From Thalassorhabdomicrobium marinisediminis (GTDB taxonomy: Bacteria > Pseudomonadota > Alphaproteobacteria > Rhodobacterales > Rhodobacteraceae): a DNA stretch of 32,207 nt. The stretch spans positions 1 to 32,207 of the forward strand of contig NZ_QCYG01000014.1 of the NCBI RefSeq assembly GCF_003072065.1. The letters run 5' to 3'. Within the stretch, counting starts at the first letter, position 1. Each line of letters starts with the position of its first letter. The position numbers and the translations under genes are program-made. The notes under the pieces are model-generated. The model had not been told where the DNA came from and searched no databases. It saw nothing but the letters and a program-made list of their open reading frames with translations. This document shows, one piece after another, positions 3,050-22,274 of the stretch.

Positions 3050-4423
3050 TCAAAAGACATAGGCAACCGATACTCCGGCACCGGCAGACCATGACGATCC
3101 GGTGGTGAGCTCATTGCGGTAGGCTTGCTGCCCGGTCGAGACCAAGGAGGCATCTTCACCCGTGCCGGACACGGTGGCCGTGATGGGCGAGAGGGCCGTG
3201 GCCCGCAACGTGGGTTGATTGAAGCCCCGCTGCCCATAGAGCGACAAGGACAGAACACCGCCAAGCGCGATCGGACGGGAGACACCGATTTGCAAACCTG
3301 CGCGGCCGGTGGCCCCTGACAGGCGGTCCCTGTGTCGGATTTCAGGCCCATCGCTCAGGCTCGGAGCTGTTACCCGGCTGTAGCCGCTGTACTTGCTGTC
3401 GAAGCGGCCGATTTCAGCAGACAGGCCGATCGACCCCGTCCAGGCGTCGGTCAAAGGCCGCGAGAACGAAATCTGCGTCGCCGCCCCGTAGGTGCTGGAG
3501 GTGACGGTATCGCGCGAGGTCAGGCCAATCGTCGGGCCATTCGCACTGTTGGTTGTGGGCGCGATCTCGACCATTTCATCCCGCGACAAGCTGCGGTCGG
3601 TCACCGTCAGAGTGGGGCCGACCTTTGCGGTGATGGTCCAATCGGAGGTGGTTGGAATCTGCCACCCGCCCAGAATTTGCTGGCGCACCGAGGTGATGCG
3701 ATCGGTGGCTTCGATAACCACCTCACTGTTCTGGGTGTCGCCGAGCCCCGAAAGCACAAACCCGCCCGCATCGAAAATCGCACCGTAGCTTGCCGACAGC
3801 GCGTTCGTGCCATCGGTGGTGAGCGCGGTGAAGGCACCGCCGCTGGCCGTCGTGGTGATCGCCTGCTGGGTGATCGCGCCGCCCGGAGGCGAGAACGCCG
3901 AGCTGGTGATCGTGCCGGTTCCACCCGTGTTATCGGTCAGGCTGACATCGGCGGTGGCCACCGCGCCGGCGGGCCCCGAGGAGCTGTTCAGATCAATCGT
4001 TCCATCGGGCGCCGATCCGAAGCTCAAGACCACGGGGCCCCCATTGCCCAGACGGCTGCGCTGACTGGTGTTGAGCCGGCTCACGCTCAGATCCCCGGAC
4101 CATTCGACGAAAAACGAACGGGGGCCATCCTGCACGGTCCAGGCCGCCGATTGCGAAAAGGTGATCTGACGGTGCTGGCCATTGGAGTGGAATACGCCCG
4201 AGGGATGCAGGCTGCTGACGGACAAGGCCGGGGCATCATGGACACCCAGGGCGACTCCGGTCCCGAGGCCCAGAAAGCCGAATTCGTATCCCGGCTCGAT
4301 TGTCACTTGTTCCGGTTGCGGCACATCCGCTTCCACGATTGGGGGATCCAGCGCGCCGGCATGCAAGGATGGGAGAGACCCGAGTGTCAAAACGCAGGCG
4401 ACGACCGGAACTCTACTCAACAT
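3050..4423 (-). CDS. Predicted outer-membrane beta-barrel protein of the curli-like block
   Basis: This 457-residue protein begins with a signal peptide (MLSRVPVVACVLTLGSLPSLHA, cleavage near residue 22). Its second half is rich in alternating polar and hydrophobic stretches ending in aromatic residues, and the last residues are VSVAYVF. A terminal Phe is the usual signal for BAM-dependent insertion of outer-membrane barrels. Residues about 120-220 are rich in Ser, Thr and Gly and may form surface or passenger-like sequence. The ATG at 4423 is supported by AGGAGGG just upstream. It is the last gene on the minus strand after the curlin, csgH-like and luxR-like genes. It is not CsgG, which is a lipoprotein of about 260 residues. 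I cannot assign a function. A role as an accessory surface protein or pore is inferred only from location. Confidence 0.75.
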   Translation of the reverse strand: MLSRVPVVACVLTLGSLPSLHAGALDPPIVEADVPQPEQVTIEPGYEFGFLGLGTGVALGVHDAPALSVSSLHPSGVFHSNGQHRQITFSQSAAWTVQDGPRSFFVEWSGDLSVSRLNTSQRSRLGNGGPVVLSFGSAPDGTIDLNSSSGPAGAVATADVSLTDNTGGTGTITSSAFSPPGGAITQQAITTTASGGAFTALTTDGTNALSASYGAIFDAGGFVLSGLGDTQNSEVVIEATDRITSVRQQILGGWQIPTTSDWTITAKVGPTLTVTDRSLSRDEMVEIAPTTNSANGPTIGLTSRDTVTSSTYGAATQISFSRPLTDAWTGSIGLSAEIGRFDSKYSGYSRVTAPSLSDGPEIRHRDRLSGATGRAGLQIGVSRPIALGGVLSLSLYGQRGFNQPTLRATALSPITATVSGTGEDASLVSTGQQAYRNELTTGSSWSAGAGVSVAYVF

Positions 4424-4558
4424 ATACCCTCCTACGGAGCGACCGCCGGGCATGGCCGCACCTATGGGACGACCATTCCTACTTTTCTGAAGGACCTTTT
4501 TTTCCGCTCCTGCAAGATAACCTTCTTGGAGTGATCGCGGACTGTCAAGGTGGCCGCG

Positions 4559-5725
4559 CTATGGCGGACTCGACATCGCGAGTTTCTGTAACGACGTGAC
4601 CAATTCGACCTGTCGCCGCGTGCCGGTTTTCCGCATCAGGTTGGACAGGTGATTGCGCACCGTCTGCTTTGACATCTGGCGCTGATAGGCGATGTCCCCG
4701 ATGCTGTTCCCCTTCAGCAACTCCGAGGCCAGCTCGGATTCGTGCGACGAAAGCTTGTAGGTTTGCCACAGCATGTCGTGGCTGAGCTCCAGTTGGGCAC
4801 TTCCATGGTTGGCGATGACGGCTACCCGGCGGTCAAGGGGGGCATCGTCGTTCGCGCCGTGGTTGGAGCGAGAGGGCGCGCTGGTCGACAACCGCACCAC
4901 CGTCAGGAACGTGTCTCTCTGCCGGTCGGTGGATCTGAAATGCAGCCAGCGGCGCTTGCAACTCGTGTCTTGATGGCAATCGCGGATGGCCGCCATCAGA
5001 TCAGCATCCGAGTCGGCTTCGATCCCGTTGAGATGGCGATCCGGCCCAAGGATGAGACAGCTTCGCGACCGGAGTAATTCATCGGCCATCAGATTGGTAT
5101 GTTCGACGCGCCCCTGCGGATTGACGATAATCGTGGGGAAGGGATTCAGACATAGAATCTGTTCATACACCCACTGCGCCTGCTTGAGTTTTCTTTTCAG
5201 GTTGAAGGCATCGGTTGCGTGGCAGAAATGCGTGGAGGCGTTTGTCAAAAACTTGCGGATCTGCGCGCCCTCGGCGGCAATCACACGTTGGGATGACCGC
5301 ACCTCAAGCACGACTTGCTTGGTGCCCTCGCGGTAGATCACCATGCTGATCGCGGTCTCCACGTCGCCTCTGTCGGCAAGCCATCCCCGGTAAAAGCGGG
5401 TGGCCTTGAATTGATCCAGATCGATCAAATCCTGTTGTTGGAACACCGCGCCGATCGGTTGATGCCACTGCATGTTGAACCACGCCGACGTGGCTGAAAT
5501 CTCGACCGAGAAGGAACGACTCGCGTCAGGGTCCAGCCCGCGATGCATCAGGGCGTTTCCCCCCGGATCGACGGTATCTTGAAAGAAGAGCATCACGCTT
5601 GCGTTGGGTACCCGCTCGGCGGTCGTATCCAGGATCTGGTCATACAATCCACAGTTAAGCGCGGATTGGTAAAGGCGTGCGACGTCATCCTGACCGAAGA
5701 CAGTCTGGTCTTTATCTAAAATCAT
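4559..5725 (-). CDS. LuxR-type DNA-binding regulator
   Basis: The 388-residue protein ends in a LuxR/FixJ helix-turn-helix: LSSHESELASELLKGNSIGDIAYQRQMSKQTVRNHLSNLMRKTG, about residues 325-370. Its large N-terminal part has a PAS-like stretch around FPTIIVNPQGRVEHTNLMADELL but no receiver Asp motif that I can see. The start at 5725 is supported by a GGGAGGGGG tract six bases upstream. The frame stays open to 5875, so a 50-residue longer form is possible. CsgD, the E. coli curli activator, is also a LuxR-family protein. The position here between curlin and barrel-protein genes makes control of this block likely, but that is inference. The long upstream region with nested dyads (5968-6021) suggests independent or autoregulated expression. 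Confidence 0.85.
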   Translation of the reverse strand: MILDKDQTVFGQDDVARLYQSALNCGLYDQILDTTAERVPNASVMLFFQDTVDPGGNALMHRGLDPDASRSFSVEISATSAWFNMQWHQPIGAVFQQQDLIDLDQFKATRFYRGWLADRGDVETAISMVIYREGTKQVVLEVRSSQRVIAAEGAQIRKFLTNASTHFCHATDAFNLKRKLKQAQWVYEQILCLNPFPTIIVNPQGRVEHTNLMADELLRSRSCLILGPDRHLNGIEADSDADLMAAIRDCHQDTSCKRRWLHFRSTDRQRDTFLTVVRLSTSAPSRSNHGANDDAPLDRRVAVIANHGSAQLELSHDMLWQTYKLSSHESELASELLKGNSIGDIAYQRQMSKQTVRNHLSNLMRKTGTRRQVELVTSLQKLAMSSPP

Positions 5726-5967
5726 TTGGCCCCCTCCCCAAAGGACGCCTGCAAACGGCGATATAAAGACCGCCTGCAAGTCAAATAATAATTCTTCTAC
5801 ACTTAATTTCGCACGCCCTGCGGGCCGATCGGTAATAGATCGTATGGCATACGCCGGAACATGCTCGGATATCATCCGATCTTCTGGTCATAATTGTTGA
5901 TGCAGCGGACGTCTTTGCTCGAAACGAGTATGAGCCCCAGCCCATCCGCATCGCTTGACCAAGGGTA

Positions 5968-6021
5968 AGGTAACACATTTTCGCGCGAAATCTTAACGGT
6001 TTCTTAACTCTTGTGTTACCT
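5968..6021. promoter_or_regulatory. Nested inverted repeats upstream of the luxR-type gene
   Basis: AGGTAACACA at 5968-5977 and its exact reverse complement TGTGTTACCT at 6012-6021 enclose a 34-bp spacer. Inside are a perfect 12-bp palindrome, TTTCGCGCGAAA (5979-5990), and two TCTTAAC copies (5991-5997 and 6002-6008) spaced 11 bp apart. Such dense symmetry in a non-coding interval suggests a regulator-binding region. The whole gap 5726-6177 (452 bp) between the regulator and the csgH-like gene contains no other gene I can support. Confidence 0.55.
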
Positions 6022-6177
6022 CAGTGTTCTCGCCACGGCTGTCTTGGCGAAGGCGCAGGGGGCAAGATTCTGATCTCCCACCAAAAACCGTTGGAGCCAA
6101 CCAAGGCATGGATGGGTCGATCTCATTGCGGATGCGGGCAAGCGCTTCAGGCAAAGATATCCCGTCTGTGGCCCGAA

Positions 6178-6618
6178 TCAGATGTTCGCGAAGCAGACTT
6201 CTTCGCCTTCTGAAACGATGACCAGGGTTGCGTTGACATTGTCACCGCGGCCAACAGATACCGAGACGGTGCTCAACCTTTGCTCCTCGCCGGGCTCCAA
6301 GGCGAACAATCCTTCCTGCATCGAACTGGATCGGCCGCTGGCTCCTTCCTTGAGGATAGAAAGCCTATATCGCCCGCTTCCGGGGGCCGCGGTCTCGGAC
6401 CACACGACTCCGCTAAGTTGGAAACCGCGCGCGGTGGGCTGCTTGTCAATTTTACATTTCATATCTTCTCCTCCCGAACCGTCGATCGTGCTGTTTGCCG
6501 CGGTCGCGGTAGAGGTCAGCGCACAGGCGCATCCCAGCAGAACACCGGCCATGGCGCTGCCCAGGGCGCATCGCTTGGTCAGGGACCGCGATGGCGTAAT
6601 CGTAACTTGGTCGTACAT
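6178..6618 (-). CDS. csgH: CsgH-like curli assembly protein
   Basis: This is a 146-residue exported protein with an N-terminal hydrophobic segment (about 16-40, cleavage probably after TATA). The mature region KCKIDKQPTARGFQLSGVVWSE, SGRYRLSILKEG, MQEGLFALEPGEEQRLSTVSV resembles CsgH. That family is the alphaproteobacterial counterpart of CsgC, a small periplasmic beta-sandwich that keeps curlin from polymerising too early. Cys55 and Cys142 could pair. LLGC at 27-30 weakly resembles a lipobox, so a lipoprotein form cannot be excluded. The ATG at 6618 has AGGGGGT just upstream. The gene lies 71 bp after a curlin gene on the same strand, as expected for a chaperone co-expressed with its client. 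Identification is from remembered family pattern and context. Confidence 0.7.
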   Translation of the reverse strand: MYDQVTITPSRSLTKRCALGSAMAGVLLGCACALTSTATAANSTIDGSGGEDMKCKIDKQPTARGFQLSGVVWSETAAPGSGRYRLSILKEGASGRSSSMQEGLFALEPGEEQRLSTVSVSVGRGDNVNATLVIVSEGEEVCFANI

Positions 6619-6689
6619 TGTAACCCCCTGTCTGCGCTATGGCCGCGCGATGTCATTTGCTTCAGCAGCCCGAAGTTTGGCTCCTTTCC

Positions 6690-7073
6690 TTAGTTGCCGA
6701 CGACCGTCAGTGTATTGGTGACGGTAAAATTGGTGCCGGCCATGGAAACGCTGCTGTGGTGACTGACACCGATGCCCTCCGTGCTGACCTGAACTTTGGC
6801 CTCGATGTTGTTGTTTCCGGACTGCATCGTGCTGGCGGCGTGACTCACACCTGCCTGATGGATCGCGGAAATATTGTTGATCCCATTCTGCACGGTGCTT
6901 GCGCCATTGTTGCTGCCATACTGCGAGGTTATCGCAATATTACGTCCGGATTGAGTGGTGGCTTGAGTGTTCCCGTTGCCCCATTGATAGGCTGCGGACC
7001 AGTTGCCTTCAGCAGCGACGCCCGTTGCGAGACAGGCCGATGCGGTAAGGATTGCGAATATCTTGGGTGCCAT
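6690..7073 (-). CDS. Curlin-repeat fibre subunit (CsgA/CsgB-like)
   Basis: The 127-residue product has a signal peptide (MAPKIFAILTASACLATGVAA) followed by curlin half-repeats. Gln-x-Gly occurs at residues 30, 41, 51, 62, 73 and 84, a spacing of 10-11, with Asn pairs between (for example QSGNNN). Curlin repeats of this kind stack as cross-beta strands in extracellular amyloid. After residue 95 the repeat fades into a less regular, Val- and Thr-rich tail, so it may be a nucleator (CsgB-like) or a variant subunit. The start at 7073 fits GAGAGGG seven bases upstream; the frame is open to 7124 but without a better start. It is second in the curli-like block, between the more regular curlin gene and csgH. 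Confidence 0.85.
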   Translation of the reverse strand: MAPKIFAILTASACLATGVAAEGNWSAAYQWGNGNTQATTQSGRNIAITSQYGSNNGASTVQNGINNISAIHQAGVSHAASTMQSGNNNIEAKVQVSTEGIGVSHHSSVSMAGTNFTVTNTLTVVGN

Positions 7074-7199
7074 TTTAAGTCCCTCTCCTTTTGATTTTTC
7101 GGTGGCCGGCTCAACATCCGGCAAAAGCCGCCCGCCTGATTTAGCGAACGAAACAGTTCGTCATACTGGGGAGCAGGTTCAAGTCTGGCGAGCGGCCTA

Positions 7200-7217
7200 C
7201 AAAGCCCGAAACCGGGC
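7200..7217 (-). terminator. Possible weak terminator or attenuator between the two curlin genes
   Basis: Read on the minus strand, GCCCG-GTTT-CGGGC (plus-strand positions 7204-7217) forms a 5-bp stem that is followed by TTTGT. It lies just after the stop of the upstream curlin gene at 7253. The U-tract is short, so it may only attenuate transcription and lower expression of the downstream genes. Confidence 0.35.
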
Positions 7218-7252
7218 GGGCCTGTAAGGCGCGCCCGATTTAGGTTTTGTAA

Positions 7253-7612
7253 TCAGTCGGTCTGGACAGTGACCGAAACGTTGCCGAGACCAACCTGCTC
7301 CGTATCGGAGAAGTGACCGTTCACGCCCATCTGAGTTGTGGATGAACTGTTCAAGGCACCGATTTGGTCCGTGATGGAGTTGTTGCCGGCACCGATCTGG
7401 ACGGTCGACGAACCATTGGCCAGGCCGCTCTGCACCGTCATGCTGCCGTTGGCCACGCCAAGCTGGCCGGTGTACTGGGTGTTAAAATCACCCGCCTGAC
7501 CGACGCCGCTGAAGTTGCCAGCACCCCATTGGTCAACAATGCTGATGTTGCCGGCCATTGCACCGGTTGCGGAGACTGCGAGCACTGCGAGTGTGGAAAG
7601 AAGACGCTTCAT
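7253..7612 (-). CDS. Curlin-repeat major fibre subunit candidate (CsgA-like)
   Basis: The 119-residue protein has a clean signal peptide ending AMA (residue 20), then a regular curlin array. Gln-x-Gly occurs at residues 28, 39, 50, 61, 72, 83, 94 and 106, an 11-residue period with Asn and Ser/Thr between, ending VTVQTD. This is the sequence signature of secreted curli amyloid subunits, and its regularity makes it the best candidate for the major subunit. The ATG at 7612 follows AGAGGGA by about seven bases. It is the first gene of the minus-strand block, so the promoter should lie in 7613-7890. CsgG, CsgE and CsgF, which export curlin in well-studied systems, are not in this window. Confidence 0.88.
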   Translation of the reverse strand: MKRLLSTLAVLAVSATGAMAGNISIVDQWGAGNFSGVGQAGDFNTQYTGQLGVANGSMTVQSGLANGSSTVQIGAGNNSITDQIGALNSSSTTQMGVNGHFSDTEQVGLGNVSVTVQTD

Positions 7613-8112: not shown

Positions 8113-8180
8113 TGACCTGCCCCCCATGGGTCCCTCACTCATAACGAGAGTTTGCAGGTTTGGTTTTGATAGCTGGGGGA
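8113..8180. repeat. IS3-family element terminus (orfB side)
   Basis: Starting TGACCTGCCC at 8113, this stretch aligns base for base, with scattered mismatches and no gaps, to 31634-31700. Both copies read from outside to inside of an IS3-type element that starts with TG, as IS3 ends usually do. Here the adjoining sequence is the C-terminal end of a decayed orfB on the minus strand. Confidence 0.65.
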
Positions 8181-8694
8181 TCCGGATTGGGCAAGCGCGG
8201 TGGGCGCGGAGCCCTCAAATTGCTCAAGCGCCTGCCGCGCTTGCTTTGGCGTTTGGTTTCCGAGCGATGAGTGTGGTCTGACGGTGTTGTAGTCGTAGCG
8301 CCAGAGGGCCAGCTTCCGTCGCGCATCGTCCAGAGTGTCGAAGATCTCCTCGTTCAGCAGCTCATTGCGCAGGCTACCGGGGCGTTTCCCCCGACGTAAA
8401 ATGAAGGCGTTCTGCTGCGGCTTGCCAGGATCGATGTAATGCCATGGGACGGAGTTCACCAGTCGGCAGCGCATCCAACTCGCGGGCGACACGGGCTCCC
8501 GAGATACTGGTGTCGGCCATCAGGCACAGATTCTCGCGGCAGCAATCGTCGATCACCGCCAAGGCGAGCCATTGTGCGCCATTGGTTCGAGAACAATGGC
8601 GAGCGAACTTGCGTGAAGCCCCGAAGCTGTCGGAGAGAAAGTCCAGCGACCACCGTGCGTTGGGGCGCAACGCCTGGGGCCAAGGGGAGATCAC
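8139..8694 (-). pseudogene. IS3-family transposase orfB relic, deleted and frameshifted
   Basis: One minus-strand frame (8374-8694) gives NARWSLDFLSDSF, then LALAVIDDCCRENLCLMADTSISGARVARELDAL. Another frame (8139-8492) continues VPWHYIDPGKPQQNAFI and RNELLNEEIFDTLDDARRKLALWRYDYNTVRPHSSLG. Both are core IS3 OrfB (rve integrase) sequence. Between them the usual segment with the second catalytic Asp (SDNGTE-like) is deleted. The Glu region after NAFI, normally ESFNGRLRDE, is scrambled to LRRGKRPGSLRNE. There is also an extra stretch before LALAVIDD. With two of three catalytic residues lost, the gene is not functional. Confidence 0.85.
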
Positions 8695-8988: not shown

Positions 8989-9720
8989 CTATGGGGTGAA
9001 ACCGTGCCTATCGCGCTGCGTGCGCGCTAAGGACGTACTGGTACCCCACCTGTAGGCATGTTTGTCGTTACCTTCGATTGGCCCCTGCCCGCCCTTTCTA
9101 CCACGCCGTGGCTTCGATCCGTTGACCTTGGTCTTACCCCATCCTGTAATGATCTCGCTAGGCTCAGCCTTGCCAAGATATGCCGCGATGCAGACACCAC
9201 TGGTTCCGCCTCTTACGCATCGACGAATGTCCCAACTGCTGTCGATGGAATGTGCGATCGCCTCTGCTTCAAGGCTCCGGTTATCAGCGAGGGGCTCATC
9301 CAGCCAATCCGCCATTTGCATTGCATACTCGCGATCAAATTCACTCTGTTGGTGATACCCGAAGTGAAAATGTTCGCCTTGGGCCCGACACCATTCTCGG
9401 ACCCAAATGTTGGCTATGGGGATGCCTCTGTAACTCATCCAATGCCTGCTTTTTTCGAGGAAACCTCGAACGCATTCAGCCTGTGTCCCCATTCGGAAGA
9501 TCCCGCCCTCTCCCATGGCACGAATTCCTGTGGTCCTAATCGTCAATAGCCGGTTGATTGGCGTTCCCAAGAAGTCCGCCAGTTTTGCTGCTTCAATCAT
9601 TTTTGCCTGTGTGCCTACGGGTAGTACCTGAGTGACGACCTGTGCACGGTCTCTTACGTCTATAGTAAGGGGCGGCTTGGCAGAATATGAGGCAATCAGC
9701 ATAGCTCTTTGAAGCGACAC
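8989..9720 (-). CDS. Putative HUH-endonuclease / Rep-like protein
   Basis: I do not recognise an exact family for this 243-residue protein, but the three motifs of single-strand-nicking HUH proteins appear in the right order. These are a motif 1-like NRLLTIRTTG (about 56-65), the HUH pair His117-Phe-His119 in GEHFHFGYH, and the Y-x-x-K motif Tyr181-Leu-Gly-Lys184 in IAAYLGKAEP. Rolling-circle Rep proteins, some IS transposases and inovirus Gp2-type proteins share this layout. The IWVREW..GEHFHF stretch most recalls the Gp2/YagK group. The C terminus is basic (KPRRGRKGGQG). The GTG at 9720 is preceded by GGAAAGGCGGA; an ATG lies 18 bp inside. It stands alone, flanked by IS debris, a ccdA relic and a 10-bp repeat array. 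A role in replication or mobilisation is inference. Confidence 0.65.
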   Translation of the reverse strand: MSLQRAMLIASYSAKPPLTIDVRDRAQVVTQVLPVGTQAKMIEAAKLADFLGTPINRLLTIRTTGIRAMGEGGIFRMGTQAECVRGFLEKSRHWMSYRGIPIANIWVREWCRAQGEHFHFGYHQQSEFDREYAMQMADWLDEPLADNRSLEAEAIAHSIDSSWDIRRCVRGGTSGVCIAAYLGKAEPSEIITGWGKTKVNGSKPRRGRKGGQGPIEGNDKHAYRWGTSTSLARTQRDRHGFTP

Positions 9721-15203: not shown

Positions 15204-16562
15204 TCAGCGATCCGGCGTCAGAATGACCCGTTGCAGACCTTGCCAACAGGCCTCGACCGCCGTGCGCAGCGGCGCATAGACCGCCCGTGGCAGCGCCCTT
15301 GGCGCTATGTCGTAGAGCTGGCCGTCATGGGCGCGGGCCAGGTCTTCGGGCGGGGCGGCCCGTTTCGCCCTCCCCCGCACATCGGCCCAGACATCAGGCA
15401 TCGCATCGGGCAGCACATGGGTGCCGAACCGTGCCCGCAAACGGGCCTCTTGCGTCCGGGTCCGCACCTGGGCGCCGACGGGCAGCAGATGTACGCCTTG
15501 CCAGTCCAAGGTCATCGCCGGTTTGCCCAATGCGCGCGCCGTGCGACTTTCGCGGGTCTGGATGTCCGTCAGCCCCGCCGCCAGCGCCCGCAGACCCCGC
15601 GCCACATCTTCATGGTCCTCTGCGTCTCGTCCGCCGTCGCCCGCGGTCGCCCTGTCGCGCTCCTGCCCCGGCTCGAGGTCCGCGGGGGTCATCCGCCACA
15701 GAGGCACCGGCAGCACCAGAACATCCGAAGAGGCCGCGACCGCCAGCGTCAGCGGCCCCACATCGGCGCCGGTGTCACAGAAGATCACATCGTATTGCGC
15801 GGCCAGCCCGTCGCGGTGGATCAGGTCGTAGAGCGCGCGCCAGGGGTTCCAGCTGCGCGCCGTGCCCTGCCACTGTCCCAGCTTCAGATCCGCCAGCGCG
15901 AGCGAGGCCGGCGCGGCGATCAGATCCAGCCCCGGCCAGCGCCCCGGCCGGATCACGTCCGGGGCCGACAGCCCCACCGCCCTGGAAATCGCCTCCTCCA
16001 TCGGCAGCGGCGTCTCCCCTTGATCCAGCCGCAGCTGGTTGGCGCGCAGCAGATGGCCGCCATAGGAGCGCGCAATCAGCGGCAGAACCCCGAAGGGCTC
16101 CCCGTCGCTCTCTTCGAGCCCTGACAAAAGCCGGCTGGTTCCGGCGGCCGGATCCGCGTCGATCACCAGCACCCGCCAGCCATCTAATGCTGCCGCCGTG
16201 GCCAGATGCGCCACCGTGGACGTGCGCCCTGCCCCGCGGGCCGTCTGCACCAGTGACACGATCGGCGCGCGCTTAGGGCGCGGGCGTGGACCCTGCCGGC
16301 CTTCGGTGTCGAAATGGTGCCGCAAAGTCGCGACCTCTTGTGGGGTGAAAACCCGCGTGGCATTGGCCGCGTTCTGCCCGGATAGGGGGCGGCCCTGCGG
16401 CAGGTTCGGGACCTCTTTCAGCACCCGTCGGAAGTGCCCGACGGACATCGGACGCACAAACTGGGTGAACTCCCAGATTGTCATATCGCGTAAGGGCGCG
16501 GGCGACGCAGTCTGCGCATCAGCTCCGGCGATATTGGTCAGCTGGTCGGGAAATACGGGCAT
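15204..16562 (-). CDS. ParA-like protein with a degenerate P-loop
   Basis: This 452-residue protein resembles the plasmid ParA at 19909-21225 in layout: an N-terminal helix-turn-helix-like part (TIWEFTQFVRPMSVGHFRRVLKEVPNLPQG, about 28-57; compare SIWEISQFMFGIPADTLRKKLAEDPSLPQG) and a C-terminal ATPase-like domain. The Walker A of true ParA, KGGVGKT, is here ARGAGRTST (about 108-116), so the signature Lys is lost and the ATP-binding Lys is Arg113. The following LATAAALDGWRVLVIDADPAAGTS is still clear. No ParB gene follows. It diverges from repA across the origin region, so it may act as a repressor or copy-control protein, not an ATP-driven partition motor. That is inference. The ATG at 16562 has no clear ribosome site. 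Confidence 0.8.
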   Translation of the reverse strand: MPVFPDQLTNIAGADAQTASPAPLRDMTIWEFTQFVRPMSVGHFRRVLKEVPNLPQGRPLSGQNAANATRVFTPQEVATLRHHFDTEGRQGPRPRPKRAPIVSLVQTARGAGRTSTVAHLATAAALDGWRVLVIDADPAAGTSRLLSGLEESDGEPFGVLPLIARSYGGHLLRANQLRLDQGETPLPMEEAISRAVGLSAPDVIRPGRWPGLDLIAAPASLALADLKLGQWQGTARSWNPWRALYDLIHRDGLAAQYDVIFCDTGADVGPLTLAVAASSDVLVLPVPLWRMTPADLEPGQERDRATAGDGGRDAEDHEDVARGLRALAAGLTDIQTRESRTARALGKPAMTLDWQGVHLLPVGAQVRTRTQEARLRARFGTHVLPDAMPDVWADVRGRAKRAAPPEDLARAHDGQLYDIAPRALPRAVYAPLRTAVEACWQGLQRVILTPDR

Positions 16563-19908: not shown

Positions 19909-21225
19909 ATGCGGGATCACTCCGACCTTCAACAATTAAACGAAACCTCTCTTGTGCAGCAGTCAGCTGTGCGACGGGCGACCTTTTCACCGTCGGAGGT
20001 CAAGGCGCTGCGGCCCTTCTCGATATGGGAAATTAGCCAGTTCATGTTCGGCATCCCGGCGGATACCTTGCGCAAGAAATTGGCTGAGGACCCCTCTCTT
20101 CCCCAAGGAGAGGTTGAAGACGATGGCCGCCAACGCTGGTTCTCACTAGATGAAATTAACACCTTACGACGGAGGTTGCGGTTTCGGGGCAAACAGCTTT
20201 TGCCACAACGTCCCAAGGGCCGTGCGATGCGCGTGGCGGTTAGCAACTTCAAGGGCGGCGTTGGCAAGACCGTTGTAGCGCAACATCTGGCCCACGCATC
20301 AGCCCTCGACGGCTACCGCGTGCTTTGCATTGATTTTGACCCACAGGCGACGCTCACCCACTCCATGGGCTTGCATGAGGTCAATGACTGGCAGACCGTC
20401 TGGGGCATTATGTGTCGTGATCTGTGCCGCGAGGCGGATCGAATCGCCGATAATTATGACGACCCCGCGGACTGCCCCTACCCCAATGCCAGCCAGTTGC
20501 CGCAGGACGTGCAAAGCATTGGCGCGCAGCGGTTTCAGGATTTCATCCAGCCGACTTGTTGGCCTAGCATCGACATCATCCCCTCCTGCGCCAATGCGGC
20601 TTTTGTCGAGTTCGCGTCAGCCCAATACCGTGCATTGCACAAAGCCTGGACCTTCTTCGGCTGCGTGTCGCGTTACCTCGAAGAGTTACCCGACGATCAA
20701 TACGATATCATTATTTTCGATTGCCCGCCTGCCATCGGGTATCAATCTCTAAACGCGGCGTTTGCAGCAGATATCCTCTATGTGCCGTCGGGGCCTGGCT
20801 ATTGGGAGTACGACAGCACAACCTCGTTTCTGGGGCAGTTGGGGGACGCTTTGGCTGATATTGCCGACGGTTTTGCAGGTTTGGCAACTGATGCTGGCCT
20901 AACGCTCCCGAAAGAGTTGCACGACATACGCTTGGTGATGACGCGCTATGAGGCGCACAACCCCTTGCACGAGGCAATGATGCAGGCTTTCCGCAATGTG
21001 TTTGGCGACGACGTTTGTGAAAACCCGATCGAGATGACCCGTGCGGTCGAGCAGTCGGGCCGGTTTCAGATGTCGATTTATGAGCAGGACTATCGTCACA
21101 TGACCCGCGAGACGTGGAAGCGCGCGAGGCAAAGCTTTGATCGCGCCTATGAGGAATTCAAACAGACCGTGCTCGCCGCATGGGAGGTTGAGGCAAGCAA
21201 ATCAGCCCAAAAGGATGTCGCATGA
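19909..21225 (+). CDS. parA: Plasmid partition ATPase ParA
   Basis: The 438-residue protein has an N-terminal DNA-binding part (RPFSIWEISQFMFGIPADTLRKKL, about 35-58; RWFSLDEINTLRRRLRF, 76-92) and a MinD/ParA ATPase domain. Walker A is KGGVGKT (115-121), followed by LDGYRVLCIDFDPQATLTHSMGL; the later YDIIIFDCPPAIGYQSL carries the Walker B-like Asp. All catalytic residues are present, unlike the ParA-like protein at 15204-16562. It drives segregation of ParB-parS complexes to daughter cells over the nucleoid. The ATG at 19909 has only a weak ribosome site. parB starts inside its stop codon, so the two are translationally coupled. Codon use looks more A/T-tolerant than in rfbCB next door, suggesting a separate origin. 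Confidence 0.95.
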   Translation: MRDHSDLQQLNETSLVQQSAVRRATFSPSEVKALRPFSIWEISQFMFGIPADTLRKKLAEDPSLPQGEVEDDGRQRWFSLDEINTLRRRLRFRGKQLLPQRPKGRAMRVAVSNFKGGVGKTVVAQHLAHASALDGYRVLCIDFDPQATLTHSMGLHEVNDWQTVWGIMCRDLCREADRIADNYDDPADCPYPNASQLPQDVQSIGAQRFQDFIQPTCWPSIDIIPSCANAAFVEFASAQYRALHKAWTFFGCVSRYLEELPDDQYDIIIFDCPPAIGYQSLNAAFAADILYVPSGPGYWEYDSTTSFLGQLGDALADIADGFAGLATDAGLTLPKELHDIRLVMTRYEAHNPLHEAMMQAFRNVFGDDVCENPIEMTRAVEQSGRFQMSIYEQDYRHMTRETWKRARQSFDRAYEEFKQTVLAAWEVEASKSAQKDVA

Positions 21226-22274
21226 GCACCCGTAATAAATTTGGCTTTGGTCCACTCGACGCTACTACGACGCCCTTAAAAACAAACTCCAAGCGCAACC
21301 GAAGCGTTGGCCCGATGGGAGCCGCCGTGCGTGAGACCGCTGGGAGTTTGCAGGACAGCACTGGCGCTCTAGCCGAACAGCGACGCAAGAACGCGGCCGA
21401 CGCGAAGGCCTTTGCCAGTGCGCGTGAAAGCGGGTTGGTGCTGGAACGGGTGCCATTGAGCGAGATCAACGCCAATGATTTGCCGCGCGATCGCCTTGAC
21501 CTCGAAAGTGTCGCCGCGTCAGACGAGATGGAAGAACTCAAGGCTTCCATCCGGAGTCGCGGACAGCGCGAACCGGTTGAGTTGTATCGTGACTCGAGAG
21601 GGCATTTTCAAATCAAGAAAGGCTGGCGCCGCTTCACAGCGTTGAGCCAACTTTTGGCTGAAACCGGCGACACAGAAGCGTATGGCCAGATCGTCGCCCG
21701 TGTCGAAGCAGAGGGGGCGGACGACCGTATGGCGCGCTACGTCGATATGGTCGAAGAGAATGTCATCCGAGAGGATTTAAGCTTTGCGGAAATGGCCATG
21801 GTGGCAATTTCTGCTTCGCGGGATGGTGCAATCGAAGGGGCTGATCCCGAGGATCTCGTGCCGCGGCTCTACGCATCGTTACACAAGATGAAACGCTCCT
21901 ACATCAAAAGCTTTGTCCTGCTGCTGAAGGCCTATGGGCCAGACCTGAAATTCCCCAAGGCGATTCCACGTAATTTGGGTGTCGAAGTGGTACGCAAGGG
22001 TGGGGGGGTGCCGTCGAACGACTTGCGTCGAGCCCTCAAAGCGGCTGAGACCCCAGAAGCGCAAAATGCTGCGCTATCTGCGTATGCTTCACAGAGTACC
22101 GAACCAACGACGCCGGCCCGAAAGCAACCGCGAAGCCTGCAAGTCGGCTCACTCAAAGTCGAGGCACGCAAGGGGCGGATAACCCTTTCAGGAAAAATCG
22201 ACTACAGAGCGTATTCAGACGCGGACCTGACTAAGGCCATTGAAGCTTTCGCGGCCGCGTTGAAAAATGGATGA
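21222..22274 (+). CDS. parB: Plasmid partition protein ParB
   Basis: The 350-residue centromere-binding protein overlaps parA by ATGA. It has a basic N-terminal stretch and LVLERVPLSEINANDLPRDRLDLE. The ParB/Srx-like nuclease-fold region follows: EMEELKASIRSRGQREPVELYRDSRGHFQIKKGWRRFTAL, about 105-145. Next come VDMVEENVIREDLSFAEMAMVAI, which corresponds to the conserved box ahead of the helix-turn-helix, and a C-terminal dimerisation part (AYSDADLTKAIEAFAAALKNG). It resembles the RepB-type ParB proteins of alphaproteobacterial plasmids. Two near-palindromes that fit parS start four bases after its stop. Confidence 0.93.
   Translation: MSTRNKFGFGPLDATTTPLKTNSKRNRSVGPMGAAVRETAGSLQDSTGALAEQRRKNAADAKAFASARESGLVLERVPLSEINANDLPRDRLDLESVAASDEMEELKASIRSRGQREPVELYRDSRGHFQIKKGWRRFTALSQLLAETGDTEAYGQIVARVEAEGADDRMARYVDMVEENVIREDLSFAEMAMVAISASRDGAIEGADPEDLVPRLYASLHKMKRSYIKSFVLLLKAYGPDLKFPKAIPRNLGVEVVRKGGGVPSNDLRRALKAAETPEAQNAALSAYASQSTEPTTPARKQPRSLQVGSLKVEARKGRITLSGKIDYRAYSDADLTKAIEAFAAALKNG

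Follow-up and report, generated by a model that had tools for sequence, protein, structure and literature searches.

The window analysed here is the entire contig C6 (NZ_QCYG01000014.1, 32,207 bases) of Thalassorhabdomicrobium marinisediminis, a member of the Rhodobacteraceae whose genome assembly counts 35 contigs and 3.43 Mb at a completeness of 100. On its minus strand, from 7612 down to 3050 in the list of open reading frames (ORFs), lies a curli-type amyloid block in the order curlin 1 (7253..7612), curlin 2 (6690..7124), CsgH (6178..6618), a LuxR-type transcription regulator (4559..5875) and an outer-membrane barrel protein (3050..4453), all five being present in one direction as the original prediction, made from the letters alone, had described them. 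According to our analysis, the barrel, the LuxR protein and a special form of curlin 1 constitute a distinct subtype among the curli loci of the family that have no match to the CsgG pore, and the barrel may serve as a surface anchor or nucleator of the fibre.

Curlin 1 possesses a signal peptide followed by curlin repeats from its first mature residues, and curlin 2 likely starts near 7073, to judge from the reading of its signal peptide. Nine glutamines at an 11-12-residue spacing are invariant across five curlin 1 sequences, that of the window included, and the repeat kernel of Gln, Gly and Asn is present in all five; because of these invariant spaced glutamines we regard the repeats as true curlin repeats and not a chance pattern. 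Two results weigh against this assignment, as neither curlin had a match in the Pfam search of the window proteins and curlin 2 gave only 13 bits with PF07012 in the search of its own genome (cut-off 20.7); a match of curlin 2 to the CsgB model also stays under its cut-off of 165 (E 2.6e-06, 27.3 bits). We consider the window curlins too diverged in sequence to reach the Pfam repeat cut-off. By our own signal-peptide rule the mature chains start directly with the repeats, at most about 8 residues past the cleavage site, and the N22 targeting segment was not found ahead of the first repeat in the window curlins. Absence of N22, which is frequent among curlins of CsgG-less loci, was considered as a mark of these loci and dropped, 8 of 18 curlins from CsgG loci being without the spacer as well under a simple signal-peptide rule (the rule could be applied to 74 of 81 curlin ORFs, and 7 with no signal peptide or no two spaced repeats were left out); N22 is termed an outlier in the available text of Sleutel 2023 (PMC10192328). 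Another curlin-like place in the genome, on contig C11 (E 0.4), was also rejected, with no curlin among the surrounding ORFs of at least 100 amino acids.

The third gene encodes a CsgH, by its family a periplasmic amyloid-inhibiting chaperone, which scores 92.6 bits with NCBIfam NF041112 (cut-off 35), 27.0 bits with the CsgC-type Pfam model PF10610 (cut-off 25) and, slightly below the cut-off of 27, 26.2 bits with the Pfam CsgH model PF21112. Its two cysteines lie far apart, one near the start of the matched domain and the other near its end, which fits the definition of the family, of which two sequence-distant cysteines are a part according to the accessible portion of the work describing it, where the Rhodopseudomonas palustris CsgH is reported to hold Escherichia coli CsgA unfolded in vitro (PMC4838910).

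The regulator contains a GerE domain (35.9 bits, cut-off 23.5) and adjoins the barrel gene in eight of eight genomes of the subtype. It is not CsgD, since the CsgD model NF007505 gives 18 bits against a cut-off of 250 and covers residues 361-420 only. By its adjacency, the LuxR protein may regulate the curli genes. In the regions ahead of curlin 1 from all eight genomes, the best 18-base motif scored 12.7 bits (11.7-12.4 in 8 shuffles) and the best 22-base motif 14.7 bits (12.7-13.8 in shuffles); a shared operator was not used as evidence, being slightly above the shuffles but placed differently by the two widths.

The subtype was delimited in a family sample of 345 genomes, about one per genus. 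A profile made from four barrels gave five strong matches, in the own genome and in G047, G081, G118 and G091, while a sixth match, in G051 (E 8.3e-04 over 89 positions), was taken as chance; a LuxR profile, with matches taken at E 1e-30 and better, returned exactly the same five genomes. The curlin 1 profile gives 187-205 bits in these five and 79.7 bits in the next genome (at E 1e-8 it matches 30 of the 345, as do other curlins), and at these levels not one of the three proteins occurs in any of the remaining 340 genomes. Profile seeds match by construction; neither the LuxR protein nor the barrel of G091, encoded on a different contig from its curlins, served as a seed. Each of the five belongs to the 41 genomes with CsgH above cut-off (P 1.9e-05), and BLAST of the window proteins against the ORFs of 40 stretches around CsgH found the barrel on three, each time together with LuxR.

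The co-occurrence was also examined from the side of the curlin. Scanning for a short peptide pattern of curlin 1, which takes no account of the barrel, found six named loci, in Maritimibacter harenae, Oceanomicrobium pacificus (G091), Citreimonas salinaria (G081) and metagenome-assembled genomes (MAGs) of Rhodobacteraceae (G118), Yoonia and Loktanella; the barrel and LuxR occupy the same stretch in five of the six and are elsewhere in the genome for the sixth. Three genomes beyond the profile five, found by curlin 1 alone, also carry both genes, which brings the total to eight. The original prediction had proposed a search for the barrel beside curlin genes in other genomes, and it is indeed found with curlins in seven of them. 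All genes are co-directional in three of the eight (the window, M. harenae and C. salinaria), the curlin1-curlin2-csgH and luxR-barrel modules face each other in four, and in one they lie apart. The CsgH proteins of the eight genomes form a single clade with support 100/100 in a tree of 44 rows, whose bootstrap is not fully settled (26 of 41 inner branches open). Barrel distances correlate with those of LuxR (r 0.90), CsgH (0.86), curlin 2 (0.72) and curlin 1 (0.65), a pattern for which common descent could be enough.

The barrel was also sought in wider groups. In a set of 41 genomes (the own one, 18 of the same genus, 6 of the same family and 16 of the same class) no genome but the own one has it, a search of 385 genomes of the class gave, besides the own genome, two matches that are weak and partial (E 8.4e-06 and 1.8e-04), and a scan of genome contigs with the single barrel protein as query had no match. 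Elsewhere in the class, L087 and L088 (genomes G721 and G623), from other families, match the barrel profile weakly and in part, and may be generic barrels. No account of such a barrel was found, among the matches listed, in the largely open-access literature covered on curli, CsgH, Roseobacter and OpcA. The original prediction held that a barrel with a part in export or anchoring would be an undescribed arrangement; the CsgG-less state has been known since 2012, and what is new, within the searches made, is the distinct subtype of barrel, LuxR and curlin 1.

The prediction had also stated that the block lacks CsgG, CsgE and CsgF, and had left room for secretion genes elsewhere. These were sought through the genome and none was found, the three models giving zero matches in all 35 contigs. 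The CsgG model does work in the family, with strong matches in 9 of the 41 CsgH genomes as a control; for CsgE and CsgF, searched in the own genome, only E. coli matched among 14 named controls, so that the sensitivity of these two models within the family is not shown. CsgG is likewise without a match in G047, G081, G091 and G118 and in all six named genomes, three of which are G081, G091 and G118, and because it is equally missing from these other barrel genomes an assembly gap that hides it is unlikely.

A missing pore is, moreover, common in the family. The CsgH model matched 45 of the 345 genomes, 41 of them above cut-off, and CsgG was searched in those 41, the four under the cut-off being left out. 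Twelve have a CsgG-family match (9 strong, E <1e-45, and 3 weak) and 29 have none; 5 of these 29 carry the barrel and 24 do not, so that the barrel does not stand in for the pore in general. On the 40 examined stretches (besides the window, three of 45 above-cut-off places, G059:C3, G074 and G346, were left out), CsgG is present on 7, and most others hold a bare curlin-CsgH-curlin cassette in variable surroundings, according to our own rough gene calls. In genome G059, CsgG lies beside CsgH at G059:C3:156550-159158 and a CsgG-less cassette, L041, occupies another contig. Genome G047 has a second CsgH (L073, contig C1 near 2644264) that groups with the CsgHs of CsgG operons in the tree, with no CsgG match in that genome, and this is perhaps a decayed operon. 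The statement that known curli systems need CsgG was too strong, given these 29 genomes and the CsgG-less CsgH operons reported in 2012 (PMC3521004). The missing pore alone is not new, because the available parts of two papers already report it: in many Alphaproteobacteria only curlins and csgH are held and other proteins must substitute (Dueholm 2012, PMC3521004), and 1033 of 43279 CsgA genomes are without CsgG (Sleutel 2023, PMC10192328).

It might be supposed that curlins of CsgG-less loci never become surface fibres and are periplasmic or lysis-released remnants, the barrel being unrelated to assembly. No pore is known for such loci, and in the same available text of Sleutel 2023 CsgG-less CsgA genomes are treated as a 2% orphan minority (PMC10192328). 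We find this very improbable, as the signal peptides, the invariant repeat glutamines and the CsgH kept in 29 CsgG-less genomes speak for selection, and a CsgA homologue of Dinoroseobacter shibae, whose CsgG status lies outside our comparison, is described in the accessible part of its report as forming extracellular fibres (PMC12281610).

The barrel protein counts 467 amino acids from the first ATG and 457, the length originally given, from the ATG preceding its likely signal peptide; it ends in Phe and has no Pfam or NCBIfam family match. Structure prediction gives 10 membrane strands in an OpcA/OmpT-like fold, with an 8-stranded domain (residues 141-238; 3740..4033, minus strand) between membrane strands 3 and 4, which would be external by the usual topology rule and which, folded alone, reaches pLDDT 93.0 and pTM 0.83. 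Conservation is uneven: among six barrels, identity is 43% in the domain and 23% for the barrel, the domain being higher in 15 of 15 pairs, and 15 of the 25 invariant columns fall in residues 145-240.

One may think of this protein as the curlin export channel that replaces CsgG, as FapF serves the Fap system. It seems unlikely to us: with its 10 membrane strands the model resembles OpcA and OmpT, neither of which has an open pore, it shows no plug helix or coiled coil (its first 56 residues, of pLDDT <50, are unsure), and its best conserved part is predicted to be external and not in the wall. We rank anchoring above export because a barrel of 10 strands is poorly suited as a channel for proteins and because CsgG and the barrel are both missing from 24 of the CsgH genomes. 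The earlier proposal that the barrel takes part in export or anchoring is thus supported as to participation, since no csgEFG was found elsewhere and the barrel co-occurs with curlin genes in seven other genomes; of the two roles anchoring fits better, given that the shape is predicted to be 10-stranded and OpcA-like and that the external domain is conserved, and we read the barrel as a surface anchor or nucleator more than a CsgG-like pore.

Another possibility is that the barrel acts on its own at the surface as an adhesin or receptor, which LuxR would switch on together with the fibres but which would have no contact with them. The OpcA adhesin is one of the two closest folds to the model, and the LuxR-barrel pair is a unit of its own, which may lie apart from the curlins or face the opposite way. 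We nevertheless doubt such a role, because no strong barrel match is found outside the curlin 1 subtype (five of 345 genomes), and the external domain is the part that varies least here, unlike the external loops of adhesins, which are usually the most variable.

We propose, at about even odds, that the locus encodes a CsgG-independent curli-type amyloid system composed of a curlin1-curlin2-csgH module and a luxR-barrel module. Sec signal peptides would bring both curlins into the periplasm, where CsgH would keep them unfolded, and the curlins would then cross the outer membrane by some route. The barrel would present its conserved 8-stranded domain outside the outer membrane, and this domain would bind and probably nucleate the curlins at the cell surface, the work performed elsewhere by CsgF and CsgB, with the LuxR protein as the switch that turns the genes on.

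Compared with known systems, the locus shares with enterobacterial curli (csgBAC-csgDEFG) the curlin repeats, a CsgC/CsgH-type chaperone and a nearby LuxR-family regulator, but differs in having no CsgG, CsgE or CsgF match, a regulator other than CsgD and an extra barrel. That barrel has in its model the 10-stranded outer-membrane fold of the OpcA adhesin and the omptins; unlike them it carries a large extra external domain and has no sequence-family match, including to the Pfam omptins, and no His among its 25 invariant columns, whereas omptin proteases need conserved catalytic residues including His. The Fap system likewise has amyloid genes beside an outer-membrane barrel gene, but FapF, in the available text on its structure, is a 12-stranded trimer with a coiled coil and a plug (PMC6173800), in contrast to the 10 strands and external 8-stranded domain modelled here. 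The CsgH-associated operons of Alphaproteobacteria are alike in having two curlins and csgH and no CsgG, CsgE or CsgF; the accessible text on them names no barrel and does not contain the word LuxR, and the window locus has both (Dueholm 2012, PMC3521004). The gene order also differs, being curlin-curlin-CsgH in the window and curlin-CsgH-curlin in the usual CsgG-less loci of the family sample.

A possible mirror case is found in those usual loci. The downstream curlin carries a conserved extra segment of about 39 residues ahead of its repeats in 22 of 29 other CsgG-less loci, in 0 of 7 CsgG loci and in 0 of 8 barrel-type loci (Fisher P 1.7e-4, barrel-type against other CsgG-less loci). The 22 loci are L034-L046, L048, L050, L051, L053, L054, L056, L058, L060 and L064, with the curlin downstream of csgH where mapped; the segment profile was self-built, 19 of the 22 loci were its seeds, and L060 is in a doubtful long frame. 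CsgG-less refers for the 29 loci to the examined stretch: two are second loci of barrel genomes (L058 of G118, with the segment, and L073 of G047, without it), and for four others the genome has a CsgG-family match at another place, strong for L041 and weak for L035, L038 and L070. The CsgH tree is compatible with one historical split, not many. Genome G118 holds both CsgG-less types, the barrel type (L057) and the curlin-CsgH-curlin type (L058). In the common CsgG-less class, the segment may serve as an anchor or as a signal for export. We can even suggest, as possible rather than probable, a third way to build curli, in which one 10-stranded outer-membrane protein, with an external beta-sheet domain that templates amyloid under its own LuxR switch, would replace the CsgG/CsgF/CsgB surface machinery, while the common CsgG-less type would use the curlin segment as its anchor, the two solutions being mutually exclusive by locus.

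As to the setting, the block, which the original prediction called plasmid-type, likely deserves the name, since the window is a whole contig with RepA/RepB-type partition genes (19909-22274; scores below the curated cut-offs). Because of these genes, the dTDP-rhamnose and polysaccharide export genes and the transposase pieces around the curli block, C6 is probably a plasmid that carries surface-polysaccharide genes; no replication initiator was recognised among the window proteins. From 9800 to 32207 the dTDP-rhamnose, glycosyltransferase and polysaccharide export genes lie alongside the partition genes, with a second ParA-like ATPase (AAA_31/CbiA) amid the polysaccharide genes at 15204-16562. 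Transposase pieces (DDE type and rve integrase core) flank the curli block on both sides, at places among 443-1003, 8139-8492 and 8989-9720, where one ORF also resembles G2P weakly (E 0.013, under cut-off). Curlin 1 and the barrel had zero matches in the plasmid collection. The barrel was found in 0 of 18 genomes of the same genus searched, several of them incomplete, and the curli block therefore looks acquired.

How CsgG-less curli could exit and stay attached was raised as an open point in 2012, in the available text of that work (PMC3521004), and a large survey, in its accessible part, set CsgG-less genomes aside as orphans (PMC10192328). The subtype supplies one candidate protein, whose shape is predicted, and a 106-residue domain that can be studied in isolation; named strains in culture that belong to it are those of Maritimibacter harenae, Oceanomicrobium pacificus and Citreimonas salinaria. 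Should the fibre indeed be seeded or held by the external domain, this domain would be a novel amyloid anchor and would give studies of marine biofilms a handle.

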